Below are positions 1,772 through 20,000 of a DNA stretch of 64,000 bases, in pieces (position 1 is the stretch's first letter; the number at the start of each line of letters is the position of its first letter). This DNA is from Spirosoma taeanense (GTDB taxonomy: Bacteria; Bacteroidota; Bacteroidia; Cytophagales; Spirosomataceae), in NCBI RefSeq assembly GCF_013127955.1, contig NZ_CP053435.1:3881001-3945000 (forward strand), in the 5' to 3' direction. Under the pieces are notes generated by a model that saw only the letters and a program-made list of their open reading frames with translations, ran no database searches and had not been told where the DNA came from. The position numbers and the translations under genes were made by a program.

Positions 1772-1774
1772 TTA

Positions 1775-2420
1775 AGCTACTAAATAGGAAGCTTAGTTTC
1801 AATCTGGTTTAACTGCTCGGTGGTTAGCTATTACCACTTTTCCATACCCATTTGGATAATTTAGCTTATGGTGATACACTTACTAAATTGATATGGGTAT
1901 AAATAGTTAAATACTATTTTTAACCGTACTTTAACACAAGGCGATCCTTATAAACTTGCAATAGCCAGATTAGTAGCCAGTTAATTATATATACACAAAT
2001 CTACTATCGTAAATATTTTTTTAACCTGAAAACAGTAAAGTCGAGCTCTTGTAACTCAAATTGCTAATCACTTTAGAAGTAGCCTATAAGCCTGTAAATG
2101 CTTTGTTTTTATCAGAACACTATAGTACCGGGCACAAATATGGCTATATAGACCCATAAGTTCTACTAATGTATTTTAATATCGTACTGCAATGAAACTA
2201 TATAGCGACATAACATTTCACCGATTACTCAAAAGATTTTACTGCTCACCAAGTAAGTGATACCTTACATGAACCTATAGTTGCATCTATCTTAGGTAAT
2301 TCAACTTACCCTATATAGAGCGCATCACAGGATCAGTGCGCAAATGATAATATCAATTACACACCATTAACCCTGCATCTACATATCTACAAATTTTTAC
2401 AACGCTTAATTATAACTAGC
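1775..2420. other. AT-rich stretch without an intact gene
   Basis: No open frame of useful length on either strand. Short plus-strand stretches look like decayed coding sequence, for example about 2072-2158 (TLEVAYKPVNALFL... ending in a stop), but I cannot assign them to a family. The base composition matches the AT-rich genes that follow rather than the GC-richer flanks, which suggests older remains of the same transferred island. Confidence 0.45.
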
Positions 2421-2863
2421 CCTAAGCGCACCCAGCCCTTAAACGGAGGGGTATCCTCTGGACACAAACTTAGGCTGTTTGTGACAAATGAAGATGTACT
2501 ACAGACTCAGCACGGCAATGGTGCTAAGTTTAAACTATGTGACTACTTCGACCTGATCGGTAGTAGCAGTACAAGCTCAATTATATCAGTTTGCTCAGCC
2601 ATTGGCATGAAGGTAAAGACATAAAGGTAAAGTATTTTTAAATCGGATGCATCTACTTCGATGATAAACATAAATGGTTTTGAGATTTTAAACCAACCAA
2701 GGCCAAGTATAATGCTAATCTGCTTGAACGGGAAATATAGCTTGGTCTCGGCGATATATCCCTTGTATGTGACAGAACCCTGACGGATTTGTGCATATTT
2801 ATCAAAAGGTTCAACACCATAGGTGTAGCCGATTACTGCACATCAAAAAGGAAAGTTTCATAA
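2421..2863 (+). pseudogene. Decayed patatin-like phospholipase gene
   Basis: Two plus-strand segments in different frames match the patatin fold in order. The first (2421-2624) has LNGGVSSGH where patatins have the DGGGxRG oxyanion loop, then KLCDYFDLIGSSSTSSII where intact members have DYFDLIAGTSTGGII, ending in TAA. The second (about 2654-2863, other frame) has KWF, AKYNANLLEREI, an in-frame TAG at 2738, LGLGDISL and DLCIFIKRFNT, corresponding to the GDITL and TGLCIVTKR blocks. The nucleophile elbow GTSTG has become SSSTS. With a frameshift, internal stops and lost motifs the gene is dead. It ends 12 bp before the TIR gene, so it was probably the first gene of that operon. Confidence 0.72.
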
Positions 2864-2874
2864 CAAAGAAGTAG

Positions 2875-3660
2875 ATGAAGAAACAGATGCATTCCAGTCT
2901 AGAAAGCCATGTCTACTATTGGTTAGATTATACTTATAAAAACTTTAGATCCAACGTAGTAAAAATCGATAACAAGAAAGCTATTTATAAAAATCAAAAT
3001 AAAGCTATGTTAGTAAATTCATGTTTTATTAGTTATCGGCACTTAAGCGATAATTATGAACTCCCTAAATTTATTGAGCAATTTCATAAAGTCCTTAACG
3101 CTCAATTAATAGCCGAAGTAAAAGGTGGAATCTATCTTGACAAAAGAAGGATGAAAGGAGGAGACTTTGTTGACGAGTCCTTAGCTAAAGCATTATGCGA
3201 GAGCGGCTGTATGATAATGATTTTTTGCCCTCTTTATTTTGATAATGAAAACTTATATTGTACACGTGAATTTTTATCAATGGAAAGACTTGAAAAATTC
3301 CGTAAGCATTACTATACCGGCAATAAAGGCCTTATTATACCTATCATATATAAAAATATTGGATACTATAAGTCAAAAAACGCCATTAATAATAGGGAAT
3401 GTTATGATTTCTCAAATTTTGGTCTTTGGGGAGGAGCCGATATCTTAAAGAGTAAAGAAATGAATTTAGCCATTCGGGAAATGGCTAAATCAATCGCGCA
3501 ACAATTTAGAGATTTTAAAAATACATACCCCATGTGTGAGCACGACGGAAAGCATGAGATGGTTTCTGAAGCGGAAGCTAGAAAATGGCTAAAGGCAAGT
3601 TGGGATGATAGTAATGAATACCCTAATGAAAAATTTCCTTTTGACGAAGATAATGATTAA
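2875..3660 (+). CDS. TIR-domain protein
   Basis: A 261-residue protein with a TIR fold from about residue 47: NSCFISYRHLSDN (first strand), GGIYLDKRRMKGGDF (BB-loop region), SGCMIMIFCPLYF and then CTREFLSMERL, where E132 sits at the position of the catalytic glutamate of TIR NADases. An alternative ATG at 3007 starts exactly at the TIR domain. I keep the longer form because 44 codons stay open in AT-rich DNA, but those codons could be a remnant of the patatin gene upstream. It ends five bases before the STAND gene, forming an operon. A pairing of a TIR-like protein with a KGG-type ATPase/NB-ARC/TPR protein is also known from actinobacterial FxsC/FxsT; that relationship is inferred. Confidence 0.82.
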   Translation: MKKQMHSSLESHVYYWLDYTYKNFRSNVVKIDNKKAIYKNQNKAMLVNSCFISYRHLSDNYELPKFIEQFHKVLNAQLIAEVKGGIYLDKRRMKGGDFVDESLAKALCESGCMIMIFCPLYFDNENLYCTREFLSMERLEKFRKHYYTGNKGLIIPIIYKNIGYYKSKNAINNRECYDFSNFGLWGGADILKSKEMNLAIREMAKSIAQQFRDFKNTYPMCEHDGKHEMVSEAEARKWLKASWDDSNEYPNEKFPFDEDND

Positions 3661-3665
3661 ACAAT

Positions 3666-6600
3666 ATGAGACAAGGCAAGATTTTTACATTTTACTCATT
3701 TAAAGGTGGTACAGGCCGCACAATGGCTGTAGTAAATATCGCGGCTTTATTAGCGGCACCTAACCAAGCAAGCTTTAAAACATCAATGAAGGCGTTGATT
3801 ATTGATTGGGACCTTGAAGCGCCAGGCCTTCATCGATATCTTAGACCTCACTGCTTAAATTTTATAGAAAAAGTTAACTTAGATAGCCATGAAGGTCTAA
3901 TTGATTATTTCATTGAAATCAAAAAAGAAGTTGATAAAATTTATAATAATTCTTTAACATCTTCTCAATGCGAGGAAGTTATAACGTCTGTACCTCTTGA
4001 TAGATATATTATTCGATCAGATATAAGTGGTATTTATTTCTTAAAAGCGGGTAGCTTTACCGAAGGTTATGCAAAAAAAATAAGCGAATTTAAATGGGAG
4101 GAGCTTTTTCGAAGGGCTCCTTATATATACAAAAAGTTTGCAGATAAGCTTTCCAACGATTATGACTTTACATTAATAGATTCTCGAACAGGTCTTACTG
4201 ACACAAGTGGTATATGTACCATGCTTCTTCCTGAGAAGCTTATTCTTGTCTTTACACCAAATAATCAAAGTTTAGAGGGGGTGGTTGATATCGGAAGACG
4301 TGCTACTAAATATCGTTTAAATTCTACTGATATGCGCCCACTTAAAGTGTATCCATTACCATCTCGGATAGAAATGGCAGAAAAGGAGTTAAGAGAGCAA
4401 TGGAGACGTGGCAGCACAATTAAAAAGATTAATGGATACCAAGTAATTTTTGAAAATTTATTTGAAGATATATACCAGCTTAGGAATATAGATTTCACAG
4501 ATTACTTTGACGAAATCCAAATTCAGCATGAGCCGCGTTTCTCATATGGTGAGGAGATAGCTGTACTAGACAGAAATCAAACAGATCGCCTTTCTATGGC
4601 GGAGAGCTATGAAAAATTTTTAAGTAGACTCCTTTCAGATGAAATGATATGGAAATATAAAAAATTCCCCAATAACCATAACCTGCCTGATCGGATTCCG
4701 ATAATTGGCCGTGAAGAAGAATTGAATGAACTCATGAAAGTTATTCATTCTCGATTCCCCATTATTAGCATTCATGGACCAGCTGGAGTTGGTAAAACTA
4801 TTCTTGCCCTTGAAATTGGCCATCTATGTCTAGAGCGTCCAATAACTGTGAATCTAAAAACTGCTAACTTTGAATTCATTATTTGGATTTCATCAAAAAA
4901 TAAACTTGATAAAATAAGAAGTCTAAATGATTTTTTCAACACTATAGCAAATGTTATGGGTTTTTCTAGAATAACGCAAATATCAAGCTCAGAAACTAAT
5001 GCGCAAACGAAAGAGGCCGCTATTTGCAATCTTTTAAGCTCATACAAGGTCTTAGTTATAATTAATAATCTTGAATTAAATCAAACCGATGATGATATAC
5101 TTACTTGGTTAAAGAATATTCCTGAGCCTAGTAAAGTTCTCATAACTACCCGTGCTAAGCATGACGATATTCCTTCTTGGAAAATGCATTTGGATGGCTT
5201 AAACCATCAAGAACAACAGGACTTAATAGACAAACATATTACTTCAATAGGCTTAACTAGGGAATATTTAGTTAAAATAAAAGAAGTTAACGAACTATTT
5301 GATAAATCGAATGGTAATCCTAAGGTGCTTGAGCTCCTTGTCGGTATAATTAAGACTAGTACTATTGATGATTTATCTTCAAGGCAACACATGCTTGATG
5401 CATTAGATAGCAATGATACAGAAGCAGTGTTTAATTTTTTTCATGAGGAGATCTGGAAGACCTTAAGTGAAAATGCTAAATGTATACTGATGACTATTCC
5501 ACTCTTTGTTGGTACCCTGTTTATTAAAAAAGATGCTTTATGCGAAATTAGTGGCTTAAATCCGCTTGAATTCTCAGAATCGATTATTCAACTAATTGAT
5601 CTGAATCTAGTCAGAAACAATAATGACAACCGTTATTTTGTCCATCCAATTACAAGAGAGTTCGGTCGTTCTAAGTTACAAAGTGAGTCCACATTTGAGG
5701 ACAACGTTAGGAGTAGATGGATCAATTACTATATGAGTTTTGTTAATAAGACGATCATACGAGAAGATCCTAAAGAGGTTTATTGGAATGTATTAGTATC
5801 TGATCAAATGCTTGATCTTGACCCTGAATGGACAAGTATTATTGAAGTAATGAAATGGGTATACGAGAAAAGGCCTGAAGAACTTCTTAAGTTTGTAATG
5901 TTATTAGTGCATTATATGGACAGTAGGTTCCACAACCAAGAACGGTTAATGTTTGTTCAAAAAGCTATTGAAACAGCAGAAACAAAAAAAGAATATTTTT
6001 ATGAAGAACTTTTATTAAAAATTGATGCTTTAGGCTGGACTTATGTAGAGGAAAATCAACCAGAAAGAGCAAATGTTATAATTAATAAAGGATTATTAAA
6101 ATTAAATTTTGAAAATAACTTAAGTGTAGATAAAATAAATGCTTTGAATGCGCTTGGTAATGCATGGAAAGCTAGGAGCGCCTTGGAAGCAGGAAAAGAT
6201 TTTAAAATTGTAGACGAGCTTATTGGACAAGCGTTTCGCTATGATATAACAGAGCCTTGGATAAAATTTAGGATAAATATGGCCGCAGGTGATATTTGCG
6301 TCAAGAAAAATGATATTCAGAATGCAGCAAGTTTTTATGAAAAGGCTAGAAATTTTCTTGAGATCTATGGAGGAGAAGGCCATAATTATCAGATTAACCC
6401 GCGTATTGGCATTGCATTTTTGAAGATGGGGAAGCTAGTAGAAGCTGAAAAAACATTTGAAGAGTTACAAACTCTTGAAACCATACCTATTGGTAAATTA
6501 TACGGAAACTATGGAATAGCATTAGTAAATCTTGTTAAAGGTGACATTGATGGGGCACGTCGAACTCTGAGAAATGTTAAAGAAGAGATGAACAGATACA

Positions 6601-6698
6601 CAGCTTCTAATATCTTACAGAATCTGATTGAGAACCTTGAAGTTGATATTATGAAAAATCTCACTAAATATCAACTTGTGAATGCAGTAATCTTATAG
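3666..6698 (+). CDS. MinD/ParA-like ATPase fused to NB-ARC (STAND) and TPR-like repeats
   Basis: A 1010-residue three-part protein. Residues 1-340 form a SIMIBI-type ATPase with deviant Walker A SFKGGTGRT (11-19), IDWDLEAPG (46-54), and LIDSRTG with a TPNNQSLEGV strand after it. Residues about 345-670 form an NB-ARC/STAND NTPase: GREEEL, Walker A GPAGVGKT (about 370-378), Walker B-like VLVIINNLE (462-470), sensor KVLITTR, GNPKVLELL in place of GLPLAL, and an MHD-like FVHPITREFG (about 658). The rest is helical, TPR-like (NPRIGIAFLKMGKLVEAEKTFEEL). In the Walker B position the usual first aspartate (DNLE) is asparagine. STAND proteins oligomerise on ligand sensing and release effectors, so this is the likely sensor/switch for the adjacent TIR. 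The gene is AT-rich, consistent with transfer. Confidence 0.85.
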   Translation: MRQGKIFTFYSFKGGTGRTMAVVNIAALLAAPNQASFKTSMKALIIDWDLEAPGLHRYLRPHCLNFIEKVNLDSHEGLIDYFIEIKKEVDKIYNNSLTSSQCEEVITSVPLDRYIIRSDISGIYFLKAGSFTEGYAKKISEFKWEELFRRAPYIYKKFADKLSNDYDFTLIDSRTGLTDTSGICTMLLPEKLILVFTPNNQSLEGVVDIGRRATKYRLNSTDMRPLKVYPLPSRIEMAEKELREQWRRGSTIKKINGYQVIFENLFEDIYQLRNIDFTDYFDEIQIQHEPRFSYGEEIAVLDRNQTDRLSMAESYEKFLSRLLSDEMIWKYKKFPNNHNLPDRIPIIGREEELNELMKVIHSRFPIISIHGPAGVGKTILALEIGHLCLERPITVNLKTANFEFIIWISSKNKLDKIRSLNDFFNTIANVMGFSRITQISSSETNAQTKEAAICNLLSSYKVLVIINNLELNQTDDDILTWLKNIPEPSKVLITTRAKHDDIPSWKMHLDGLNHQEQQDLIDKHITSIGLTREYLVKIKEVNELFDKSNGNPKVLELLVGIIKTSTIDDLSSRQHMLDALDSNDTEAVFNFFHEEIWKTLSENAKCILMTIPLFVGTLFIKKDALCEISGLNPLEFSESIIQLIDLNLVRNNNDNRYFVHPITREFGRSKLQSESTFEDNVRSRWINYYMSFVNKTIIREDPKEVYWNVLVSDQMLDLDPEWTSIIEVMKWVYEKRPEELLKFVMLLVHYMDSRFHNQERLMFVQKAIETAETKKEYFYEELLLKIDALGWTYVEENQPERANVIINKGLLKLNFENNLSVDKINALNALGNAWKARSALEAGKDFKIVDELIGQAFRYDITEPWIKFRINMAAGDICVKKNDIQNAASFYEKARNFLEIYGGEGHNYQINPRIGIAFLKMGKLVEAEKTFEELQTLETIPIGKLYGNYGIALVNLVKGDIDGARRTLRNVKEEMNRYTASNILQNLIENLEVDIMKNLTKYQLVNAVIL

Positions 6699-7030
6699 AA
6701 TAGAAGCGTTATCACTGATAGTTAGGCAGAGGAACAGTTGTGAATTTACCAAAAACGAGCAGGTTATATGAGGTGGTCCTGTTTAGCCGGACAGTCAACT
6801 ATGCAAGTTTTGATTTAACATTAGGTAATAGTTCTGCTCAAATTGCTCAGGGCTAATGTTGCCCAGCGACGAATGCCGCCGTTTCCGATTGTAATAGCAT
6901 TCAATGTAATCGAACAATTCAATACGGGCATCTTCTAAGGAGCGAAATACGCCATTTTCAAACAGCTCAGCTTTCAAGCGGGACCAATAGGATTCCATAA
7001 ACGCGTTGTCATAGGGATCATCAGGACGAC

Positions 7031-7566: not shown

Positions 7567-8457
7567 GTGGTCTATAAACTGGTTACTGAACTGAGTAATC
7601 ACCACCCGATTCAAGTAATCTGTCATGCCTTGGAGATCAGCCGAAGTGCCTACTATGAATATCGACGGGGCTTGAGCTATCAAGTATCTGAAGAGAAACG
7701 AAAGCTCATTGGTGCTATGCAGAAAAGTTTTGCCGATCATCGTCGTCGATACGGCAGTCGTCGGTTAACGCCGGAATTACAAGAGCAAGGTTATTCGGTG
7801 GGACGGCATCAACTCCGACGGCTGATGCGCCGTGAAGGATTAAGGGCAATTCAGCCCCGAAGCTTTATTCCCCGAACGACGGACAGCCGCCATAATGGAC
7901 CTCTTAGTCCTAATTTGTTAGCAGATAGCCCATTTCCTGCCGCGCCAGGGTGTGTACTGGTTGGGGATATTACATATATTCCGTTGGTTACTGGAGAATG
8001 GGCCTATCTGGCTGCCTGGATGGATCTGTATTCTCGCCTGATCGCAGGCTGGCAGATCGAATTACACATGGAAGAATCGCTGGTCCATGAGGCCTTGAAA
8101 AAAGCCTTATTGCGTCGCAAACTGAATCCGAATGCGATCGTACATTCCGATCGGGGTGGCCAGTATATTGGCAAGTCATTCCGCAATACCCTACTTACTA
8201 ATCAAATTCAACAGAGTATGAGCCGACCCAACGATCCGTACGACAATGCGTTTATGGAATCCTGCTGGTCCAGGTTGAAAGCTGAACTATTAGAAAACGG
8301 AGCCTTCCGCTCACTGGAAGATGCCCGAACTGAGTTATTTGATTACATTGAATGCTATTACAATCGGAAACGGCGGCATTCGTCGCTGGGCAACATTAGC
8401 CCTGAGCAATTTGAGCAGAACTATTACCTAATGTTAAATCAAAACTTGCATAGTTGA
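7567..8457 (+). CDS. IS3-family OrfB transposase of element B (uninterrupted)
   Basis: A 296-residue integrase-core protein with the HTH_21 region (KRKLIGAMQKSFADHRRRYGSRRLT) and DDE residues in LVGDITYIPL, VHSDRGGQYIG and DNAFMESCWSRLKAE. It ends with the IS3 signature RRHSSLGNISPEQFEQ. Normally it is made as an OrfAB fusion through a -1 shift at the A7G run (7528-7535). The GTG at 7567 is only the first start codon in frame. With orfA broken, transposition would need an OrfA from elsewhere. Its stop overlaps the right inverted repeat. Confidence 0.88.
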   Translation: MVYKLVTELSNHHPIQVICHALEISRSAYYEYRRGLSYQVSEEKRKLIGAMQKSFADHRRRYGSRRLTPELQEQGYSVGRHQLRRLMRREGLRAIQPRSFIPRTTDSRHNGPLSPNLLADSPFPAAPGCVLVGDITYIPLVTGEWAYLAAWMDLYSRLIAGWQIELHMEESLVHEALKKALLRRKLNPNAIVHSDRGGQYIGKSFRNTLLTNQIQQSMSRPNDPYDNAFMESCWSRLKAELLENGAFRSLEDARTELFDYIECYYNRKRRHSSLGNISPEQFEQNYYLMLNQNLHS

Positions 8458-8776
8458 CTGTCCGGCTAAACAGGACCACCCCACCAGCCTTTGATTTTAC
8501 GACTGAATAGATCCATCCAAGCTGCCAGGTAGCCCCACTCGCTGCCCGCCAGCGGGATATAAGTAATGTCGCCAACTAAGACTCTATCCGGTGCCGTAGG
8601 AAAATCCATTTCTAATAATAAGTTAGCACAGAATGGCCCACTGTGCTTGCTATCGGTTGTACGGGGAATAAAGCTGCGTGGTTGAATGGCCCCCAGACCT
8701 TTGGCTTGCATGAGTCGCCGGAGCTGATGGCGACCTACTTCAAATCCCTGCTCTTGCAACTCCGTTAACAAGCGAC

Positions 8777-8792
8777 CGCACGGGCGGCCCCG
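8777..8792 (-). repeat. 16-bp hairpin insertion 2, in OrfB of element A
   Basis: Plus-strand sequence CGCACGGGCGGCCCCG, placed between AGCGAC and GACTGCC. Removing 16 bases restores YGSRRLLTELQEQG, the conserved IS3 reading. With the preceding C it forms the stem CCGC/GCGG around the loop ACGG. It agrees with insertion 1 at 12 of 16 positions, but the loop bases differ. In the coding direction the site is followed by GTCG. Confidence 0.75.
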
Positions 8793-8987
8793 GACTGCCA
8801 TAGCGCCGACGATGATCACTGAAACTATCCAGCATTGCCTGCCGTAATTTTTCTTTCCCGGCTGTCAGGCGGTGGCTTTGACCAGCCTGGTAAGTGTAGT
8901 ACGCACTACGACTTATACCAAGCGCTTGACAAAGTCTTTCTACGGGAAAATGCCGTGCTAGTTCGGTCACTACCTGGTAGGATAACG

Positions 8988-9281
8988 TCAAGTCAGGCGG
9001 CTGAAAATGGCTAAGGCTTTTTTTAGTATGTCGCGCTCTTGTTCGGTTCGGCGTAGTTGCTCTCGCAATTGGTCATAGTCCTGCTGGGATATTCCGGTTG
9101 GGCTCTCAACGGATTTGTTTGTATGCCCTTTCCAACGATAAAGTATATTTTCGGAAATACCCAAGGAGCGGGCTACATCCGGCACACTTCGTTGGCCAGT
9201 AGTCACTAAGCGAACGGCCTCGTTTTTGAAGTCTTCGTCGTACTTTCGGCGTGGTTTTACCACGTTGTGCTTCTTGGTCAT
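8988..9281 (-). CDS. IS3-family OrfA (HTH) of element A
   Basis: A 97-residue intact OrfA: RRKYDEDFKNEAVRLV, helix-turn-helix VPDVARSLGISENILYRW, then a leucine-zipper-like tail (YDQLREQLRRTEQERDILKKAL). The run of seven A before G (T7 on the plus strand, 9018-9024) is the usual -1 frameshift site leading into OrfB. Its partner OrfB is destroyed by insertions, so it cannot support transposition of its own element, although the protein could still bind its ends or complement another copy. Confidence 0.82.
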   Translation of the reverse strand: MTKKHNVVKPRRKYDEDFKNEAVRLVTTGQRSVPDVARSLGISENILYRWKGHTNKSVESPTGISQQDYDQLREQLRRTEQERDILKKALAIFSRLT

Positions 9282-9373
9282 GGTACAGCTAAGTTAAGCA
9301 ACTCAACTGTCCGTCAAACCTGTGAGATGGTCTAATAAATCGGCACAGTGAACTTGTCTAATTTCGCAAGATC

Positions 9374-9673
9374 ATGCAGCTTAAAAACAAACCCATTAAC
9401 CGGCGTAAATACGACGCTACTTTCAAGGCCGACGTACTGAAAATGATTGCTAACGGCCAGAGCGTGGCTTATGTGGCACAGGCGCTGGGTATCAGTGAAG
9501 CGCTCATCTACAAATGGAAGCAACGGACAAAAGGGGAAGAAAAGCACCACTCTTCGGGTCAGGCCTCCGAAATGCTGATTGAGAATCAGCGACTGCTACA
9601 GCGTATCAATCAACTAGAAACCGAGCGCGAAATCTTAAAAAAAGCCTTAGCCATTATCAGCCGACAGACCTGA
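9374..9673 (+). CDS. IS3-family OrfA of element C
   Basis: A 99-residue intact OrfA with RRKYDATFKADVLKMI, the helix-turn-helix SVAYVAQALGISEALIYKWK and a zipper region (IENQRLLQRINQLETEREILKKAL). It clearly differs from the OrfA of elements A and B, so C is a different IS of the same family. The A7G slippery run lies at 9637-9644; a -1 shift there enters the OrfB frame (KKSLSHYQPTDLRVRYELIQELASE). Confidence 0.87.
   Translation: MQLKNKPINRRKYDATFKADVLKMIANGQSVAYVAQALGISEALIYKWKQRTKGEEKHHSSGQASEMLIENQRLLQRINQLETEREILKKALAIISRQT
9637..9644 (+). other. Programmed -1 frameshift site (A7G) of element C
   Basis: AAAAAAAG after TT within the OrfA codons for ILKKAL. IS3 elements use this run to make the OrfAB transposase. 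The same run is found in element B (7528-7535) and in element A (complement, 9017-9024). Confidence 0.65.
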
Positions 9674-9699
9674 GAGTACGATATGAACTAATCCAAGAG

Positions 9700-10582
9700 T
9701 TGGCTTCTGAATTTGCAGTTGAAACCCTGTGCTCAGTTTTTGCAGTTAGTCGGACAGCCTACTATCGATACTTACGGGGTGATAGCTATCGATTAAGTGC
9801 TGAAAAAATGAAGCACCAGCAGTTAGTCGAACAGACTTTCAACAACCATAAACGACGGTATGGCAGTCGACGCATTACGGCAGAGTTGCAGGAAAAAGGC
9901 CATTCAGTAGGACGTTGTCAGGTTCGAACGCTGATGAAATTGGTTGGTTTACAAGCCATTCAGCCTAAGTCATTTGTACCACGAACGACCGATAGCACCC
10001 ATAATAGAGGCTACTGGCCAAATTTATTATTAGATCAGCCTATGCCCAAGGCACCCAACTTGGTCTGGGTCAGCGATATTACTTATCTGCCGCTGGTCAA
10101 CGGTGAATGGGGCTACTTAGCTACCTGGATGGATCTATTCTCGCGTAAGATAGTGGGTTGGCAGGTGGATGAAACGATGGAAGATGAATTGGTTGTGCTT
10201 CCCTTACGTCGTGCACTGCAATTACGTCAACCTGCCGAAGGCCTAATTATCCACTGCGCCGGCAGCCCGGTCGGATCGAGGTGGGCAGTATGTATCAACG
10301 GAGTTGAAGGAGTTAGCGCGTTTGTGGCATATTAGGCCCAGTATGAGTCGGGCCGACGATCCGTATGACAATGCCTTTGCTGAGTCGTTATGGAGCCGCC
10401 TAAAGGCGGAGTTATTGGAAGGCGGTGTATTTTTGAGCGTGGAAGATGCACGCACAGAAATCTTCGACTACATTGAGGTGTATTATAACCGGGAGAGAAA
10501 GCATTCGTCGCTGGGCTATAAAAGCCCTGATCAGTTTGAGCAGGAATACATTACAAATCTGACAAATTCAGTGTGCCGCTAA
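9700..10582 (+). pseudogene. OrfB transposase of element C, frame broken by 16-bp insertion
   Basis: Reads as normal IS3 OrfB up to GLIIH (HRRYGS-type region, LVWVSDITYLPL with first D, LFSRKIVGWQVD). The frame then changes by one base. The remaining part, from about 10271, gives SDRGGQY in the other frame, then ELKELARLWHIRPSMSRADD, DNAFAESLWSRLKAE and RKHSSLGYKSPDQFEQ. Removing 10255-10270 restores a single frame. The protein cannot be made intact. Confidence 0.85.
10255..10270 (+). repeat. 16-bp hairpin insertion 3, in OrfB of element C
   Basis: TGCGCCGGCAGCCCGG between CCAC and TCGGATCG. Its removal restores LIIHSDRGGQY, the conserved second-aspartate motif. The complement contains CCGG-GCTG-CCGG, again a 4-bp stem with a 4-base loop. 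The spacing and skeleton match insertions 1 and 2 (GCCG...C.G...CGG next to TCG), while loop and outer bases differ. It could be placed one base to the right with the same result. Confidence 0.72.
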
Positions 10583-10601: not shown

Positions 10602-11282
10602 ATGGCCAGCTATAATTTTTATGACAATGAGGAACGTCCATTAAGGGACCGGTTTTTGTCTGTATTAGACGATACTAGACAAGATGAATCCTCAACTCGC
10701 TCACTTGCACGATGGCAAGAAGCCTTCGGACCGAATGAATCAGTGCCTTCTGAAGAAGCTTTGGCAAATTTGTTAACTGATTTAAAAGCAATACCTACAC
10801 TGTTGTCCAAAGCGACTTGCCCTAAACATCGTTTGTTTGTATCACATCGGCAAATTGACAAAGGATATGGTCTTCGCATTGCCAAGTTAGCTAACGATAA
10901 TGGTTTTGAGTTTTGGCTGGATGTACTTGATCCAGCGCTAAAAGCACTACCCACGTTTTCTCATCTATCTGCAAAGCGGCTGGCCTTACTAACAGCATGT
11001 ATAATCGAAATGGGGCTTATCAATAGCACGCATGTATTGGCTGTTATGACCAGAAAAACAAAGGGGGGCGAATGGGTACCGTATGAATATGGGCGTGTCC
11101 GGCAGGTTAACAATACATCGTGCTGGAAACACCCCAATCACATCTTTACCTTACCTGATTACATAGAATTAGGAGCAATAACAAATAGTGAAGCAACGAT
11201 AAACTCTTGGCTTTCGGGTTTTTCTCCTAGTCCGTCTATTCTATGGAAACCCGCTTGGATGATCACTAAACAGTTACCATAA
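10602..11282 (+). CDS. TIR-like domain protein
   Basis: 226 residues. Residues 1-75 are an unrecognised helical region (ERPLRDRFLSVLDD...SEEALANLLTDL). From 77 a TIR fold follows: HRLFVSHRQIDKGYGLRIAKLA (first strand and helix), GFEFWLDVLDP, STHVLAVMTRKTKGGEWVPYEYGR, in which E162 takes the catalytic-glutamate position. The ATG lies only six bases after the end of element C, so the native promoter has probably been lost or replaced. It is followed 36 bases later by another TIR-like gene, forming an operon. Function unknown; an NADase effector or regulator is a guess from the fold. Confidence 0.75.
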   Translation: MASYNFYDNEERPLRDRFLSVLDDTRQDESSTRSLARWQEAFGPNESVPSEEALANLLTDLKAIPTLLSKATCPKHRLFVSHRQIDKGYGLRIAKLANDNGFEFWLDVLDPALKALPTFSHLSAKRLALLTACIIEMGLINSTHVLAVMTRKTKGGEWVPYEYGRVRQVNNTSCWKHPNHIFTLPDYIELGAITNSEATINSWLSGFSPSPSILWKPAWMITKQLP

Positions 11283-11318
11283 GTATAGAAATAAATTTAC
11301 AAGTTGATTGAAGAGAAT

Positions 11319-12164
11319 ATGCCAAGTCATTACATTCATTATCTTCCTAGACGGGCTTATCTGCGATTCCTGAATGATAAGCAATCGCCAAATTTTGAAC
11401 AGCAAGATAGATCCCACACCAAAGATGTTGATGAACCTTGGTATGCTGAGGACCAAAGGTTAGACAGTGGCTTTCTCCGTCCCACATATCATATCACAAG
11501 GAGTAATAGTGGTCCCGCTGAGGCAATTAAACCAGGTGATACTATCTGGATAATCAGTCAATTATTTTCTCCATGGGGCCATTTACCCCCAGCATTAGAC
11601 GCTAAGGTTGATGTGCAGGAAGTAATAAATCAGCAAGACGGCACTATAAAATTTATAGCGGCTGCTTCTTCAATTTGGTTTCCCTTAGCCGATATATCTA
11701 AGATATTAAATGAATTATATACAGTTCCAAAAATTGGACAACCAACTCATTTAATGTCCGATAAGAATAAACCTGTTGGTATTTATCTTCAAAGCATCAG
11801 AAAGCTAGAATCGTCAACTAGGCTTTTAGAATGGTCTAATAAATTAAAAAAGCGAGATTTTAAATTTATTAGCTATCGAATAAAAGATGGCACAGAGTGC
11901 GCCTATAAGTGTGCTCAGAAATTACTGAAAAAGAAAAAGGCAGTTTATTGGGATAGATGGTCTTTACCGAGAAGGTTAGTTGAGCGAAGAGAGACAGTAG
12001 ATGATAAGGCGTTAAACCTAACCTTAGAAAGCGTAATAAGCGATCCTAAATGCTCAACCGTGTATGGCATAGAGTCGCCACTTTACTCAGACCCAACCAG
12101 CTATGCACAGAGAGAAGCAACGCTTGCAAAGCAATTAGGGAAGTATTTAAGCGTTCCTTGCTAA
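11319..12164 (+). CDS. Unrecognised N-terminal domain fused to a TIR-like domain
   Basis: 281 residues from ATG 11319; an in-frame TTG at 11304 is less likely. Residues 1-175 are a domain I do not recognise (LRPTYHITR, GDTIWIISQLFSPWGHLPPALD, FIAAASSIWFPLAD). From 181 the pattern is TIR-like: FKFISYRIKDG, KKKKAVYWDRWSLPRRL, STVYGIESPLYSDPTSYAQREATLAKQLG, in which E266 corresponds to the catalytic glutamate after the PLYS strand. It is co-directional with the TIR gene at 10602 and probably its operon partner. The reading after 12100 has a competing open frame (REVFKRSLLIADEIASKAL), so the C-terminus may be shortened by a frameshift. Confidence 0.65.
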   Translation: MPSHYIHYLPRRAYLRFLNDKQSPNFEQQDRSHTKDVDEPWYAEDQRLDSGFLRPTYHITRSNSGPAEAIKPGDTIWIISQLFSPWGHLPPALDAKVDVQEVINQQDGTIKFIAAASSIWFPLADISKILNELYTVPKIGQPTHLMSDKNKPVGIYLQSIRKLESSTRLLEWSNKLKKRDFKFISYRIKDGTECAYKCAQKLLKKKKAVYWDRWSLPRRLVERRETVDDKALNLTLESVISDPKCSTVYGIESPLYSDPTSYAQREATLAKQLGKYLSVPC

Positions 12165-12212: not shown

Positions 12213-13250
12213 CTACAATCTCCTCCTTACTTCCACAGCCACAGCCTTTACCTGCACCCAATCCTTCTCTATATCAGCTTCGGTGAGAAAGTAGAACGGT
12301 GCAAACGTATTGCAGGTAATGCGATTTAGCCCGCGGAAGGGCTGTACGGCCCTCCAAGTGGCGTTGGCGAAGCGGTTCAGTAGTTGTTTGTCCTTCTGGC
12401 CAATTGTGTTGTTGTTTATGGATTCCAGGATGTCAGAAGGGAGCTTTTGCTGAGTTGTAGCCAAGTAGTCGAGGCCGCAGGTGAGGGCGTAAAATCCAGC
12501 TAGGTTTGTGGCAATTTTCTGTTCTTTTACGCTTTTCGTTACGGTAGCGGTTTCGTCTTCGGGCGAAAGAAAAGGGTGAACTGGTTTTTGCTGGCCTTTG
12601 TAATAACTGGCGTCCAGATGAGACGCTATCTCGGCCGCAAACGATTCGCTTTGTAGCAGACTGCGTAATTTGCTCATTTGATCGTTCAGCGAGCCGTTCC
12701 GAACGTCCTGCATGGCGATCTGCAGTTTCTCAGCAGCCGCCTGAATCTGGTCGTAATCCTTTTGGACTTCGTCTTTTGGCAGGAAGCTGGCCATGGTAAA
12801 AACCGAGCGCTCAATACGATCTAGCCCCTGGAATGGCTGTCCGGCTTTCCAGGTAGCATTAGCGAAGCGGTTGAGCAGCAGAAAGGTGGCAGAATCAACC
12901 TTGTTGTTTATAATTGCTTGGAGCATATCGGTTGGCTTCTGATCGGACTGAGCACACAAAGCCCCAAGGCCGCATTCCAGCGCGTAGAAACCGGCCAGGT
13001 TAATGGCTATTTTTTCGTCTTTTCGGGTAATAATTACCTTGGCAGTATCATCGCCCGACTCCAGAAAAGGCGGAGGAGTTGCACCAATATTAGCATAATA
13101 AGCATTGTGCTCGGCCTTCGCTATAGCGAAGGCAAACTCCTTGTTACGTAGCAGGGAGTCAATCGCGCTTAACTCACGGTGTATCTGCTGTTGCTGTCGG
13201 TTGTCATCATCTTTCTTCATACAGCACAAAGGTATGAGCAGAAACAGCAC
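12213..13250 (-). CDS. Internally duplicated protein, partner of macro-TIR gene
   Basis: 345 residues built from two copies of a roughly 145-residue unit (about 33-176 and 197-340). Shared blocks are IAxNLAGFYALxCGL (81-95 and 246-260) and LLNRFANATW with QPFxGLxRI (125-145 and 290-310). The family is not recognised. The best start is GTG at 13250, giving a short hydrophobic leader (LFLLIPLCC) that may anchor it as a lipoprotein, although the lipobox is poor; ATG 13220 would make it cytosolic. It begins 30 bases after the macro-TIR stop, so the two form an operon. An immunity or partner role is possible from context only. Confidence 0.7.
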   Translation of the reverse strand: MLFLLIPLCCMKKDDDNRQQQQIHRELSAIDSLLRNKEFAFAIAKAEHNAYYANIGATPPPFLESGDDTAKVIITRKDEKIAINLAGFYALECGLGALCAQSDQKPTDMLQAIINNKVDSATFLLLNRFANATWKAGQPFQGLDRIERSVFTMASFLPKDEVQKDYDQIQAAAEKLQIAMQDVRNGSLNDQMSKLRSLLQSESFAAEIASHLDASYYKGQQKPVHPFLSPEDETATVTKSVKEQKIATNLAGFYALTCGLDYLATTQQKLPSDILESINNNTIGQKDKQLLNRFANATWRAVQPFRGLNRITCNTFAPFYFLTEADIEKDWVQVKAVAVEVRRRL

Positions 13251-13279
13251 GCTACCCCTTTATCCATCTTTGCTAATTT

Positions 13280-14494
13280 TCAGTTGCTTATGATTTGATC
13301 AACGGAAGCTTTTAACTTTTCCATATCGCCTTCTGTGCAGTCAATGTAGCTATATATGGCCATCATTGGCGGCAGGTCGGCATCGTTGCAGAAGTTGATA
13401 GTTTTAATGGTGAGTTTCTTACGTTTCTCCATGACGTACGCGCATTGAAACTCATCCCAGCAGACGTCCGACTTACTATATTCAGGGGTAAGCACACAGA
13501 CCACGCTTTTCGAGCGCTGAATGGCGTCGGAAATCATTTTGATCCACAAACCACCTGTGGGAATGTTGTCGCGGTCGTAAAAAATAGTGGAGTCGGGGTG
13601 CCTGACCTTTAAGGCGTTGACCAGTTCCCGTACGGCCGCCGTGTGTTTGTGTGAATAGCTAATGAAGTAATCGTAGGTAGTCGGCTTAACCGGTGTGAGT
13701 ACAGATTCTAGATCGTCGACGTCGATATCTCTAGAGTTCGTGAAGTCGATCCGCTCGTCGGTTTCTGCCTGAACCAGTTCCCGTAGTGCGTACTCCATCT
13801 TAGGTAGAGCTTGCTCCGTGAAAGTAGTTCCGTTCAGGATATTGATCTTCGTGAGCGCCGTATTAGCACTCATTAGCCCGACTTCGGCCATGTGCTTGAG
13901 TTCATATTGCTTCCTGACATTCTCAAAAATGGGAAAGCCTTTGGCAACCTGGTCTTCACGGTGTAGCACAAGTTTTAATGAGGTTAGCGGCAAGCCTGTA
14001 TCAAGCCAGAAGATGGCGGTATCCAATAGAATAGGCAGCATAGTTTCAAGCGGAAACAGCTGATCATCAGTTGCCAGAACCGGCATCGCAACTTCGTTGT
14101 GCAGATCGTCAATGGCAAAGGCGTTAATGCCACGAAATAGGTTGCCTGCTTCCGTTTCGGCATCACTAACATTCCCAATTGGTTCGAAGCAAAGGATTTT
14201 CCTGAAATTAAAACGATGCTGCTGAGCCTCGGACAAAGGTTTGGAAAGCCAGCACCCCAACTGATTAAGTAAGTCGATGTCTTTATCTTCGGCTAGCTCG
14301 GCAACCGAGACGCCAACATTATTCAGCGCCGACATCAGCGTACCGAGCACTGGCTCATAGCTCCCCCGAATGGCGGAAACGGCTAAGATATCCACGGCCA
14401 GTTCGGTTGGTATAGCCGTCAAGTCACCGTGCAGGAGTTGAATATAGGCATTGCCCTCTGGTCGAGAGATTTTAATCTGGGAAAGTAGTTCCAT
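13280..14494 (-). CDS. Macro-like domain fused to a TIR domain
   Basis: 404 residues. Residues 17-180 look like a macro domain: IQLLHGDLTAIPTELAVDILAVSA (GDxT and DAIVxxA positions), YEPVLGTLMSAL, then MPVLATDDQLFPLETMLPIL and a final LKLVLHRE strand. Residues 273-400 form a classical TIR: YDYFISYSHKH, TIFYDRDNIPTGGLW, SKSVVCVLTPEYSKSDVCWDEFQCAY, with E348 at the catalytic site. Macro domains bind ADP-ribose-type nucleotides and TIR domains cleave NAD, so a sensing or feedback link is plausible (inference). A 28-bp near-palindrome lies just upstream (14516-14543). First gene of a two-gene operon. Confidence 0.82.
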   Translation of the reverse strand: MELLSQIKISRPEGNAYIQLLHGDLTAIPTELAVDILAVSAIRGSYEPVLGTLMSALNNVGVSVAELAEDKDIDLLNQLGCWLSKPLSEAQQHRFNFRKILCFEPIGNVSDAETEAGNLFRGINAFAIDDLHNEVAMPVLATDDQLFPLETMLPILLDTAIFWLDTGLPLTSLKLVLHREDQVAKGFPIFENVRKQYELKHMAEVGLMSANTALTKINILNGTTFTEQALPKMEYALRELVQAETDERIDFTNSRDIDVDDLESVLTPVKPTTYDYFISYSHKHTAAVRELVNALKVRHPDSTIFYDRDNIPTGGLWIKMISDAIQRSKSVVCVLTPEYSKSDVCWDEFQCAYVMEKRKKLTIKTINFCNDADLPPMMAIYSYIDCTEGDMEKLKASVDQIISN

Positions 14495-14515
14495 AGCCGA
14501 TGAGGTCTTGCGAGT

Positions 14516-14543
14516 GGATTGGTTACCGACAGGTTACCAATCC
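14516..14543 (-). promoter_or_regulatory. 28-bp near-palindrome, candidate operator of the macro-TIR operon
   Basis: Arms GGATTGGTTACC and GGTTACCAATCC flank GACA. They pair at 11 of 12 positions. The box starts 22 bases upstream of the macro-TIR ATG. The inner GGTTACC is also a direct repeat with an 11-base period. Placement and symmetry suggest a repressor site; no regulator gene is adjacent. Confidence 0.5.
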
Positions 14544-14789
14544 CTGAAGCGACAAGTTGTTAAGTTATATCTAATCTCTCGTTCATAAAACGACGGTTTA
14601 TTGAACGGAAGAACCTATCTCGCTGAAGCGTTACACCTAATTCATCTGCACACATTTATCATTATACTCTTTTTGAACTTATCCATAAGCCTTTACCAAG
14701 AATACTACATTCCTCAATCCTGGCAAATACGACCCAATACCTATCCTGAACGGTTTCCGGGTAAATTAGGGCCGTAATACATCCTGCTC

Positions 14790-16511
14790 ATGAACAAACA
14801 CCTGTACCTGCTGCTCACCTTCCTGAGCGTTTCAGCCTTTGCCCAGACTAAATCAACTCTGATTACGCCGTATGAACGGAGCCAGGGGCGGCAAACCGCT
14901 ACCTATACCGAAATCATTCGCTACTATCAACAGCTCGATCGGCAGTTTAAGCAGGCGAAACTGATTGAAATCGGCAAAACGGACGTGGGCAAACCGTTGC
15001 ACCTGTTTCTGCTCGCAGCCGATCAGGTGTTTACGTCCCGCCCCGACCGGGTTACGCTGCTGATCAACAATGGCATTCATCCCGGTGAGCCGGAGGGTAT
15101 TGATGCGTGCATGATGCTGGCCCGCGACCTGCTGCTGGCGAATAAACTGCCCAAAAACGTGCTGCTGGCCATTGTGCCAGTCTTCAACGTAGGCGGCAGC
15201 CTGAACCGGGGTGTATCACGGGCGAACCAGAACGGCCCTGAGACCTATGGCTTCCGGGGTAATGCCCGCAACCTGAACCTCAACCGCGATTTCATCAAAG
15301 CCGATGCCGAAAATACCCGATCGTTTCAGGCTATGTTCCAGTCGCTCAAACCGCAGGTGTTCGTCGACAACCACACCAGCAACGGAGCCGATTACCAGCA
15401 CGTGGTGACGTATTTTGCCACGCAGAAAGACAAGCTGCACCCGGCCGTATCGGGCTACATGACGCAGACCTTCCAGCCGAATCTGGACAAAGCCCTCACC
15501 GAAAAAGGCTTTCCACCCGCGCCTTATGTCAACAACTTCAAGGATACGCCCGAGAGTGGTCTGCTGGGGTATAACGATTCACCACGTTACACGACGGGCT
15601 ACGCGGCCATGTTCAACTGCTTTGGCTTTACGCTTGAAACGCATATGTGGAAAGATTATCCGGCGCGGGTGAAAGGCAGTTACGCCTTCGATGAAGCGGT
15701 TCTACGTCTGTGCGAGCGCGACGCCCGAACGATTCTGGCCAATAAGCAGCGCGCCGATGCCGCCGTTAGTCAGCAGACCCGCTTTGCGATTAACTATAAA
15801 CTCGACCGCAGCCAGACTGATTCGATTCTGTTTCTGGGTTACGAAGCGGCCCATAAACCCAGCGAGGTGTCGGGTTTGAAACGACTCTATTACGACCGCA
15901 CGAAACCATTCACGAAGCGCATTCCGTACCAGAACACGTTTGTGCCCGACGCGGAACTGGTCAAACCGGAAGCTTATGTCATTCCGCAGGGCTGGCGGGA
16001 AGTAATCGTGCTGCTAAAGCGTAATGGCGTTCGGATGCAGCCACTGAACGGCGATACGCTGCTGACCGTAACGGCTTATTACCTCGACGATTACCAAACG
16101 AGCCAGCGGCCCTACGAAGGGCACTATCTTCACTCGGCGGTGAGGGTCCGCCCGGCGGTGCAGCGCATCCAGTTCTATAAAGGCGACTATGTTATTCAGA
16201 CGAATCAGCCAACGAATCGGTACCTGATCGAAACGCTGGAACCGCAGGCGGCCGACTCGTTTTTTGCCTGGAACTTCTTTGACAGCGTGCTCGATCAGAA
16301 AGAATACTTTTCAGACTATATTTTCGAAGACACGGCCGCCGATCTGCTCCGGAAAGACCCGGCTCTACGTCAGCAGTTAGCCGACCGGCGAGCCGCCGAC
16401 AAAGCTTTTGCCGACAATGCCCGAGCGCAACTGGAGTTCATCTACAGAAAAACAACGTATTTCGAAAAGACCTTCAATCGTTACCCGGTGTATCGGCTGG
16501 AAGGCAGGTAA
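14790..16511 (+). CDS. Exported M14-family zinc carboxypeptidase
   Basis: 573 residues with a signal peptide (MNKHLYLLLTFLSVSAFAQ). M14 motifs: HPGEPEG (HxxE zinc ligands, about residue 100), GNARNLNLNRDF (substrate arginine), VDNHTSNG (zinc histidine, about 197) and FTLETHMW (catalytic glutamate, about 286). The C-terminal 200 residues are an accessory region typical of long Bacteroidota M14 proteins. Likely removes C-terminal residues from peptides in the periplasm or outside the cell. Ends in a weak hairpin (16514-16528). Confidence 0.9.
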   Translation: MNKHLYLLLTFLSVSAFAQTKSTLITPYERSQGRQTATYTEIIRYYQQLDRQFKQAKLIEIGKTDVGKPLHLFLLAADQVFTSRPDRVTLLINNGIHPGEPEGIDACMMLARDLLLANKLPKNVLLAIVPVFNVGGSLNRGVSRANQNGPETYGFRGNARNLNLNRDFIKADAENTRSFQAMFQSLKPQVFVDNHTSNGADYQHVVTYFATQKDKLHPAVSGYMTQTFQPNLDKALTEKGFPPAPYVNNFKDTPESGLLGYNDSPRYTTGYAAMFNCFGFTLETHMWKDYPARVKGSYAFDEAVLRLCERDARTILANKQRADAAVSQQTRFAINYKLDRSQTDSILFLGYEAAHKPSEVSGLKRLYYDRTKPFTKRIPYQNTFVPDAELVKPEAYVIPQGWREVIVLLKRNGVRMQPLNGDTLLTVTAYYLDDYQTSQRPYEGHYLHSAVRVRPAVQRIQFYKGDYVIQTNQPTNRYLIETLEPQAADSFFAWNFFDSVLDQKEYFSDYIFEDTAADLLRKDPALRQQLADRRAADKAFADNARAQLEFIYRKTTYFEKTFNRYPVYRLEGR

Positions 16512-16672
16512 AAATTCAGGGACTGAATCTGTTTTAAGAATAACCAGAGCCGGGTGAAGATCTCACGATCGTCGAAACCGGTTTGTAGTTTCACAGTAGG
16601 CATACAGACCAAACACGGCTCACACACCGTCAGCAAACGCAGGCGTTCCAACGATTAACGCAAATACCGGGA

Positions 16673-16875
16673 TCACATCGCGAACGCCATCGCCAGCAAT
16701 GCACCTGACATTTCCTGTGGCTCCAGACGGGCGATTCTAGCACCGATGACTCCGACCAGCAGACAAGGGCTAAAACAAAAGCGCCCGGTCGCCAATGCCA
16801 GCTGGCCAGAAGCAGTAATAGAGAAGGAATGAGCACACCGACAGGCCGCATCATCAATCTTCTATTCTTTTGCAT
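16673..16875 (-). pseudogene. Remnant of a small membrane protein gene
   Basis: Minus-strand reading gives RPVGVLIPSLLLLLASWHW and VLAL in one frame, then, after a +1 shift, CLLVGVIGARIARLEP and SGALLAMAFAM followed by a stop. Together these resemble the end of a small uncharacterised four-helix membrane protein family (the GxIGAxIARxxPxGMxxAL pattern). The N-terminal half is missing. The rest of the 16512-17015 gap contains nothing I can support. Confidence 0.4.
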
Positions 16876-17015
16876 GGGATACGGTAGTTTACGTTGTAGC
16901 TGAAGAGTCCACTCAAGAAGCCAGGTCTGTATGCCGAAGTTTGGCCCAGAATACCTTGTAACAAATCAATGATTTTATGTAACTTGACTACATCATTGCT
17001 GCTCCTAACCCCCAC

Positions 17016-20000
17016 ATGAAGCCATTCTACAGTGCGCGGTGGCCCGGCCTGCTTGCCATCACTCGGGGCTGGCGTCAAGCCTCGACCAGTTTTGCGTTAA
17101 GGACCCGCCAAAGGACGGTGTTCCACTGGCCAAAGCTTCGAAGGAGCACGTCGGCAATAATCCGGTCTGGTCGAAGTCAGACGGCTCGATGTGTGCTATA
17201 CCTGCTGCTGTATGCGCTGCCCATTCAGGCTCAGAATTTTACGTTTAACCGGGTTCCTTTATTTGAAGAAAATATCCGGGGATTCATTACGGCAATGGCC
17301 CAGGATGACCACGGCTATATGTGGTTTACGGGCGTAAATCTGTACCGCTATGACGGGTATCACCTGATCACCTATAGAAATGATCCGCGGGATTCTACAT
17401 CGATTGCCCCTTCCCGACTGGAATCAATCTATATTGGCAAAAACGGCATCATCTGGATTGGTACGTTCGGGTCCGGCCTTGAGCGGTTTGATCCAGCCAC
17501 CGGCATCTTCACGCACTACCCAAATAAGCCCCATGATCCGGGCAGTCTCAGTAACAATATCGTTACGTCCATCCTTGAAGATCAGGACGGCCTGCTTTGG
17601 GTGGGTACGCACGGTGGCCTGAACCGGTTCGACCCGAAGACAGGAAAATTCAGGCGATACCAGCATAATCCCGCCGACCCGACCAGCCTGAGCAATGATC
17701 AGGTCAGGATCTTGTATCAGGACAGGCAGGGCACGCTCTGGATTGGCTGCGGCAGTCCGTTCGGAAACGAGTCGCCGGGCGAAGCGGGCGGCCTAAACCG
17801 GCTCGATAAAAACACGGGCCTCTTTACCCGTTACCTGCATGACCCCAGAGACCCGAATAGTCTGCTCGACAATAAGGTCCGGGCCATCTGTGAGGACAGC
17901 CGGGGCAATTTCTGGATTGGCACGGCCGGCGACGGCCTGCATCAAATGAACCGGCAAACCGGACGGTTTACCCGATTCCGGTACGATCCTCTCCAACCGG
18001 ATAAACTCAGTGCCCCCGAGAAAAAAGGCGATTTTCACCATGTCACCTTTGTGCATGAAGACGTAACGGGTGGTATCTGGATTGGTGCATTTCCCAGCGG
18101 GCTGAATTATTTCGATCCGAAGACATCGAAAATAACCCGTTACGTAGCCAACAAGGACAAACCCGAAGGACTGCAGGAGAACTCGGTCTGGTACGCCTAC
18201 ACGTCCCGCGATGGAGTTCTTTGGATCAGCACCCAATTTTATGTGTACCGGATTGACCCCTTACGCCCGCACGTTACCCACATCACTACCGATGGCCGGG
18301 TTAATGCTTTTTACGAAGACCACCGCACGCTATGGATCGGCACGGATAAGGGCCTACTCCGAAGCGACCTGAATTCGTCATCGGCCACGTCTTTCCGGCA
18401 TGATCCGCAGCGCACGAGCAGCCTTAGCAGCGATGTTGTGTTATCGCTCTGGAAAGACCGGAAAGGGAACCTCTGGGCCGGCACGGCCAATGGCCTGAAC
18501 CGGTTCAACCCCCAGACAGAAACGTTTACGCGGTACGAACATAACCGCGCCGATGCCAGTAGTATAAGCCAGGGAGGAGTTTTGTCTCTTTATGAAGATC
18601 ATCTGGGCGATTTCTGGATCGGCACCGACTCCGGACTGGATCGCATGGACCGTGTACAAGAACGCTTTACGCACTACAGGCATAAGCCCGGCGAAGGCGG
18701 CAGCCTCAGTAATAACACGGTAAAATGCATTAACGAAGATCAGTCCGGCACGCTGTGGATAGGTACCTGGAGCCGGGGTGGCATTAACCGCCTGGACCGA
18801 CGAGCGGGCCGGTTCAGGCGATATCTGGAAGGCAGCAATGTGGTCAATATCGCTCAGGATGCGCAGGGCACCCTCTGGGTAGCGACCGAATTTGGCCTGT
18901 TCCGGCGGAACGATAAACAGGATCTATTCACCCGCTTCACCGACGCGGGGCCGGAATTGAGCACAGCCAACATTGTAAGCATTCTGGAAGATTCTAAACG
19001 AAACCTCTGGCTGGGTTCGGTATCGGGTATCTTCAGACTCAATGCCAGTCGGGCCAGCGCCCAGGTTTACGGGAAGAAATACGGAATTCTGCCCAACGGT
19101 CTGTCGGACATGGTAGGCCATAAGCGCCCCGATGGTGCCTTGTTATTTGGCGATGAAACGGGTTATTACGTCTTCCATCCTGGTGAAATTAAAACCAATA
19201 CCAAAGCACCGCAGGTGCTCATTACGGATTTTAAAATTGCCGATATGCCGGTCAAACCGGGCCCGGATAGTCCGTTAAAGAAGCCTATCGAAGAAACCCG
19301 GGCGATTGAACTCACCATCAAACAGAATGTATTTTCCTTTGAGTTTTCCGGGATTCACTACAGCAGTCCCGAAGCCAATAAACATCTTTTCATCCTGGAA
19401 AACTACGAGAAAAACTGGCGCAGGGCCGGTTCGGAGAAGGCCGCCTACTATTCAAATGTGCCGCCCGGCAATTATGTATTTCGGGTAAAAGCCGCCAGCA
19501 GCGACGGCTTATGGGCCGAGAATGCCCTTCGCGTTACGGTGCTGCCGCCCTGGTGGGCAACCTGGTGGGCATACGGCCTCTACGCAATCCTGTTTATGGG
19601 TGGAGTCTACGGCGTGCATCGCTTTCAGAAGCAGCGCGTGATTGCCATCGAGCGGGAACGAACCCGGGAACGGGAACTGGCGCAGGCAAAAAAAATTGAA
19701 CAGGCCTATACAGAACTCAAAACAACGCAGACGCAGCTCATTCAATCCGAAAAGATGGCTTCGCTGGGTGAGTTAACCGCCGGCATTGCCCACGAGATGC
19801 AGAACCCGCTGAACTTCGTCAATAACTTCGCCGAAGTCAGTACCGAGTTAGTTGATGAGTTAAAGGAAGGGCCCATCCAGAAATTACCGGATGCGGATAA
19901 GCAGTATGCCGATGAGATTTTAATTGATCTCAGCCGGAACTTAGCCAAGATTACCAATCATGGCCAGCGGGCCGCGTCCATTGTGAACGGTATGCTCGAA

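Follow-up and report, generated by a model that had tools for sequence, protein, structure and literature searches.

Patatin, TPR-S, TIR, pYEATS and caspase-type domains commonly accompany bacterial immune genes, and TPR-S and pYEATS conflict systems were reportedly described by Burroughs and Aravind in 2020. Two of the known systems closest to the locus analysed here couple a TIR enzyme to a ligand-binding domain. In type II Thoeris, a TIR enzyme is paired with a macro domain able to bind products of the ADP-ribose type, according to the available text of PMC11204291; the two reside in separate proteins, with the macro domain joined to a membrane segment (TM-macro ThsA, TIR ThsB), and the available parts of PMC11204291 and PMC12847820 report that these macro domains bind ADP-ribose-type ligands and oligomerise. 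Cat1, from type III CRISPR systems, instead places a ligand-sensing domain and a TIR NADase in one chain, in which the sensor is a CARF domain (cA4) and the TIR comes first; it becomes active upon ligand-driven filament formation (PMC12162218, sections available).

Within a 64,000-nucleotide stretch of the Spirosoma taeanense genome (hereafter the window), we analysed a gene whose product carries a macro domain first and a TIR domain last in a single polypeptide. It differs from Thoeris in this one-chain layout and in that its relatives usually lie near a patatin gene. TIR and macro domains as partners in one system are already known, and the single-chain form is a variant of that arrangement. 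Searches on names for the fusion, which did not extend to the 2015 and 2020 papers likeliest to list it, returned no description of the single chain, nor is it described in the available text of PMC11204291, PMC9503650, PMC8195603, PMC12847820, PMC12162218 or PMC7159879. The features of the gene and its nearest neighbour are as follows.

13280..14494, minus strand: macro-TIR fusion gene, 404 aa, ATG start, uninterrupted frame
13901..14494, minus strand: macro domain, residues 1-198 (AlphaFold model, structural and profile matches)
13679..13900, minus strand: variable linker, residues 199-272 (212-236 and 239-270 under pLDDT 50; length and sequence vary among relatives)
13283..13678, minus strand: TIR domain, residues 273-404 (Pfam TIR_2, structural match to the plant TIR RPV1)
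14066..14068, minus strand: codon of D143, second ligand loop (all 11 other macro-TIR proteins carry Gly here)
13451..13453, minus strand: codon of the catalytic glutamate E348 (Glu in all 12 macro-TIR proteins; aligned with Cat1 E74)
12213..13250, minus strand: next gene, 345 aa, 29 bases from the macro-TIR gene

Macro and TIR domains of the window protein

The macro assignment, first proposed in a sequence-only reading of the window, was not an obvious one, because Pfam and NCBIfam gave no match in residues 1-260 of the protein (and no macro match at E 10) and only one of eight relatives reached Pfam Macro, at E 0.077. Against the Pfam Macro cut-off of 22 bits (PF01661), relatives scored 15.7 bits (L012) and 14.1 bits (L053). 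Modelling of the whole protein with AlphaFold, supplied with 8 relatives, gave residues 1-200 as a well-predicted domain, and the macro domain alone was modelled at pLDDT 88.1 and pTM 0.87, its worst-predicted part being loop residues 142-144 (under pLDDT 50 in the domain model). The best structural match was the second macro domain of PARP9 (VIA Z 18.6, rmsd 2.4, 176 aligned), with macroH2A1.1 (Z 17.4), Oceanobacillus MacroD (Z 17.3) and AF1521 (Z 16.6) also matched. Rows not named macro among the structural matches listed were two mitoribosome chains (Z 17.1 and 15.1) and leucine aminopeptidases (Z 14.0), whilst ThsA macro entries were absent among the 50 listed, which says nothing either way. 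A viral fold search, in which macro-type viral proteins ranked near the top, contributed nothing new.

Profile comparisons pointed in the same direction. A profile of 8 relatives searched against PDB sequences gave four matches at E ≤ 10, all to AF1521 (best E 0.029), and a profile of 17 domains gave 28, of which five lay at E ≤ 0.0014 and the rest at 0.08 or higher. Judged by their names, all 28 were macro-domain proteins or chimeras, including viral entries and 1spv, which we take to be macro proteins. Alignment with hhalign to 12 ordinary macro proteins returned a probability of 95.1 and E 3.4e-8, a comparison that had no negative control and was not independent, since the 12 partners had been collected using a profile of the window protein's macro subfamily. 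Taking the silence of Pfam to mean that residues 1-200 lie outside the macro group was considered and rejected on the PDB profile matches and the structural matches. The structure prediction, named in the sequence-only reading as the check that could refute it, did not do so: the model has a macro fold, and over a domain (residues 1-198) larger than the 17-180 originally suggested. The domain belongs to the macro superfamily by its predicted fold over the whole domain, at scores below the Pfam cut-off. Both halves of the proposed fusion are real, the macro half by fold and profiles and the TIR half by Pfam.

For the TIR half, Pfam TIR_2 matched residues 277-392 (E 1.7e-16, 61.2 bits, cut-off 28) and the plant TIR RPV1 matched the structure (VIA Z 15.8, rmsd 2.2, 130 aligned). 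PADLOC matches of the whole protein (PDC-S66 at 1.4e-8 and others) were confined to this part, and ThsA_Macro (PF20016) gave no Pfam match to the window protein at E 10; a genome search with PF20016 was silent, as were its controls. Among TIR sequences in the PDB, that of Cat1 came closest (E 4.8e-10), and the Cat1 NADase-site residues include S7, H8, N9, N10, D33, S68, E74, K121 and Y122 in the available text of PMC12162218. Four of the seven aligned site residues are shared, with Cat1 S7, D33, S68 and E74 corresponding to S279, D307, S342 and E348, whereas H8, N9 and N10 are replaced by Y280, S281 and H282; K121 and Y122 fall outside the aligned part. The designation of E348 as the catalytic glutamate holds, as it is kept in all 12 macro-TIR proteins and aligns with the active-site E74. 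Judging by these residues, the window TIR looks active as an NADase and probably makes ADP-ribose from NAD+.

Pocket residues of the macro domain were judged from alignments. D24, the Asp of a GDI motif, is invariant in 17/17 aligned domains and aligns (8-row profile match) with residue 20 of AF1521, presumably the adenine-binding Asp. MacroD-type ADP-ribosyl hydrolases are characterized by a NAAN motif with the catalytic Asn and by a GGGV loop. In the subfamily, the NAAN position carries residues of V-S-A-F type, the second Asn being replaced by I, F, Y, L or V throughout the 17 domains, none of which has the GGGV loop. The loop-2 Gly143 is kept in 16 of the 17 domains and in 11 of the 12 macro-TIR proteins, the exception being the window copy, which has Asp. 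Because D24 and the loop-2 Gly are kept and both NAAN and GGGV are absent, the subfamily reads as a binder rather than a hydrolase, with a doubt over the window copy, where an Asp in the phosphate loop weakens any ligand claim. The sequence-only reading had offered three functions for the macro part, namely sensing of the protein's own product, its hydrolysis, or gating by a ligand. Ligand sensing or gating fits the alignments, and hydrolysis appears the least likely of the three, disfavoured by the replaced Asn and the missing loop.

Distribution and evolution of the fusion

The suggestion that the same fusion be sought elsewhere proved fruitful, with 12 macro-TIR loci found in Bacteroidota, each counted once (the window, L004-L010 and L050-L053), although not all independent, as L005/L006 and L008/L009 are close relatives. 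With 12 loci, a lone chance fusion was rejected. Two peptide patterns run across genome contigs recovered at least 7 full-length relatives. In the family of Agriterribacter, 9 of 394 genomes carried the macro subfamily at E ≤ 1e-6 (7 macro-TIR, of which G1048 and G1074 were taken as the same loci as L006 and L008, and 2 other fusions). It occurred in 2 of 36 Spirosoma genomes, the window's own included, and a phylum-wide sample gave any match in 6 of 395 genomes, two of them strong, again including the window's own, with the four weak matches not counted as relatives. A search with a profile of the macro subfamily returned 20 matches, 19 of which were likewise not counted. Among 15 of these uncounted loci that were inspected, 13 look like ordinary macro proteins, judged by the presence of NAAN and GG motifs (L018 checked by Pfam), 12 of them serving as comparison set A7, and L014 and L016 look unrelated. 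No relative was found in a plasmid search with residues 1-249 or in two scans of viral contigs.

The macro and TIR halves have evolved together, both conserved around a variable linker. Their pairwise distances correlate at r 0.88 over 66 pairs of the 12 proteins, a value equalled in none of 5000 permutations, and dN/dS in two close pairs was 0.081 and 0.138 for the macro domain and 0.029 and 0.046 for the TIR; between the window and its nearest relative, synonymous sites were saturated, so no dN/dS is given. Decay of the window gene as a whole was rejected, since its frame is open and each domain shows two private changes in a comparison of 10 proteins (without L052 and L053), yet D143 remains a caution on this copy. 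In the tree, the 17 domains separated from ordinary macro proteins with support 100/100. Ten macro-TIR rows clustered at 93/95, just below the mark, and L052 and L053 fell outside with weak support; a single fusion event is therefore not proved.

The same macro subfamily also precedes other outputs. Three proteins in L054 and L055 (G952 and G900) carry it, with an ADP-ribosyltransferase-like remainder in the two that were scanned, both matching above cut-off (PF03496 at 1.9e-5 in L054, PF01129 at 2.5e-5 in L055).

L054 7905-9107 and 11359-12564, and L055 9761-10972: macro subfamily plus ADP-ribosyltransferase-like domain (two of the three scanned)
L012 (G310) 961-2037, minus strand: macro subfamily plus DUF4145, beside an McrBC gene

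That the subfamily recurs in front of several outputs speaks for a role on the input side. Fusions of macro domains into further bacterial conflict proteins have already been published, in the sections of the literature available. A DUF6508 gene follows the L054 fusion gene, and a similar-looking gene is present in L055.

Gene neighbourhoods

In 9 of the 12 loci a patatin gene adjoins the macro-TIR gene or is a few genes away, the exceptions being L004 and L053, which have none, and the window, which has a remnant. The smallest form, in L010, comprises a patatin and macro-TIR; L052 shows the same pair on a contig that ends 488 bases before macro-TIR, so that genes may be missing. The patatins recall CapV of CBASS: the three scanned match NF041079, the nucleotide-activated CBASS phospholipase family (E 9.3e-39 to 6.6e-40), and neighbouring patatins match PADLOC phospholipase effectors at 1.3e-54. 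They differ in scoring 133.5 to 137.3 bits where NF041079 requires 200, and the neighbour genes scanned included none recognisable as a nucleotide cyclase. CRISPR genes were not noticed in the ORF lists of the macro-TIR loci.

The neighbours also resemble TPR-S and pYEATS conflict systems in carrying TPR-S (PF20308), pYEATS (PF20305) and TIR domains. A TPR-S gene lies just upstream of macro-TIR in 6/12 loci (L005-L009 and L050; confirmed by Pfam in L007 and L050 and assigned by similarity in the others), and none of this type turned up next to macro-TIR in L010, L051, L052, L053 or the window. In L004 (Spirosoma validum), a CHAT, TPR-S protein some 4 kb from the macro-TIR gene replaces it. Directly upstream of macro-TIR in four loci (L004-L007) is a protein of 226-245 residues, possibly DrHyd-like on weak, below-cut-off matches. 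Downstream of macro-TIR in five loci (L005-L009) is another TIR gene, whose product seems on visual inspection to contain membrane segments. In L051, patatin and macro-TIR are separated by a pYEATS gene. L004 is flanked by a caspase-amidase-GDSL protein (3150-7007) and a CHAT-TPR-S-LCAT protein (12944-17065).

In the window itself, the adjoining 345-aa gene appears on inspection to encode two similar halves and to begin like a lipoprotein; it matched no family above cut-off, and its relatives lie within 2 kb of macro-TIR in L004 and L010. At 2394-2827 (plus strand) is a broken, shortened remnant of the patatin family found beside the relatives' macro-TIR genes (44-49% to that of L010 in two pieces). 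A search of the window's genome turned up no intact patatin of this family; the genome holds one TPR-S gene over cut-off, located elsewhere. The region 2875-6698 (plus strand) encodes a TIR-like protein followed by a KGGVGR-AAA, NB-ARC, TPR protein, likely a separate STAND-type defence pair. A ThsB-like TIR gene (10602-11282, plus strand; PADLOC E 1.8e-4) has a relative in L004 and is followed by a gene without family (11304-12164, plus strand). Transposase-like genes, some broken, were seen by eye at 977-1756 and 7567-10582.

Candidate mechanisms

We tentatively favour, with somewhat less than even confidence, macro-TIR as a ligand-regulated TIR NADase, its macro domain controlling the TIR, within a patatin abortive-infection cassette. 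The N-terminal macro domain would bind an ADP-ribose-type nucleotide without hydrolysing it and would control how the C-terminal TIR assembles and hence how active it is. The patatin phospholipase would be the protein's partner in most relatives, NAD+ loss and membrane lipid cleavage together halting phage spread. Control by ligand is favoured because of the parallels with Cat1 and with the type II Thoeris macro effectors, and it is in keeping with the macro fold, the Cat1-type TIR residues, the conserved pairing, the retention of D24 despite the loss of NAAN and GGGV, the other outputs and the patatin in 9/12 loci. Against it stand D143 in the window's phosphate loop, the replacement of Cat1 H8, N9 and N10, and the lack of any intact patatin found in the window's genome; in addition, the surroundings of the L010 pair show no further recognisable signal-making enzyme that would supply a separate ligand. 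The identity of the ligand, the switching of the TIR by binding and its direction, and the anti-phage role of the cassette are what we infer. A more speculative extension, which we regard as quite improbable, is that the ligand of the macro domain is what the attached TIR produces, such that the first turnovers would help to assemble more active TIR, forming a self-amplifying NAD+ switch in one chain, and that the same module would be reused to sense ADP-ribose before other outputs (ADP-ribosyltransferase-like, McrBC partner).

The sparse cassettes of L010 and, if complete, L052 could also be read with macro-TIR as the maker of a signal: on sensing infection it would convert NAD+ to an ADP-ribose-type signal that switches on the neighbouring patatin, much as ThsB does for ThsA, and the macro domain would limit or store the signal or detect the trigger. 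The resemblance, below cut-off, of the three scanned patatins to a nucleotide-activated family and the lack of a recognised cyclase among the neighbours scanned suit such a scheme, and a review predicts, in its available text, that macro domains in TIR antiphage systems regulate by targeting cyclic ADP-ribose (PMC9503650). We nonetheless consider it somewhat unlikely, as no case of a patatin responding to an ADP-ribose signal was met in the available literature and the subfamily's place before an ADP-ribosyltransferase-like domain or DUF4145 would go unexplained. Loss of the NAAN and GGGV loops, together with D143 in the window copy, might alternatively mark a macro domain that has lost nucleotide binding and become a structural or protein-docking part, the TIR being controlled by partners such as the TPR-S protein encoded just upstream in half of the loci. 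This is unlikely given that D24 persists in every aligned domain and the loop-2 Gly in all but one, and that in five loci no such TPR-S gene was found beside macro-TIR. Finally, an active hydrolase removing the TIR product or an ADP-ribose mark, as a built-in antidote, would accord with an activity common among macro domains, with a macro and sirtuin pair in a toxin-antitoxin-like system and with cyclic ADP-ribose as a predicted target of macro domains in TIR antiphage systems (PMC9503650, available sections), but the absence of both catalytic motifs from all 17 domains makes it very improbable.

Returning to the favoured reading of a ligand-controlled TIR, the usual proximity of macro-TIR to a membrane-lipid-cutting enzyme suggests a little-studied form of anti-virus defence. 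A conserved macro-TIR chain, usually near a phospholipase gene, would offer a compact model of an ADP-ribose-type ligand controlling a TIR, and it draws attention to a macro subfamily that scores under the cut-off of Pfam Macro and recurs before defence-type outputs, whether TIR, ADP-ribosyltransferase-like or DUF4145 beside McrBC.
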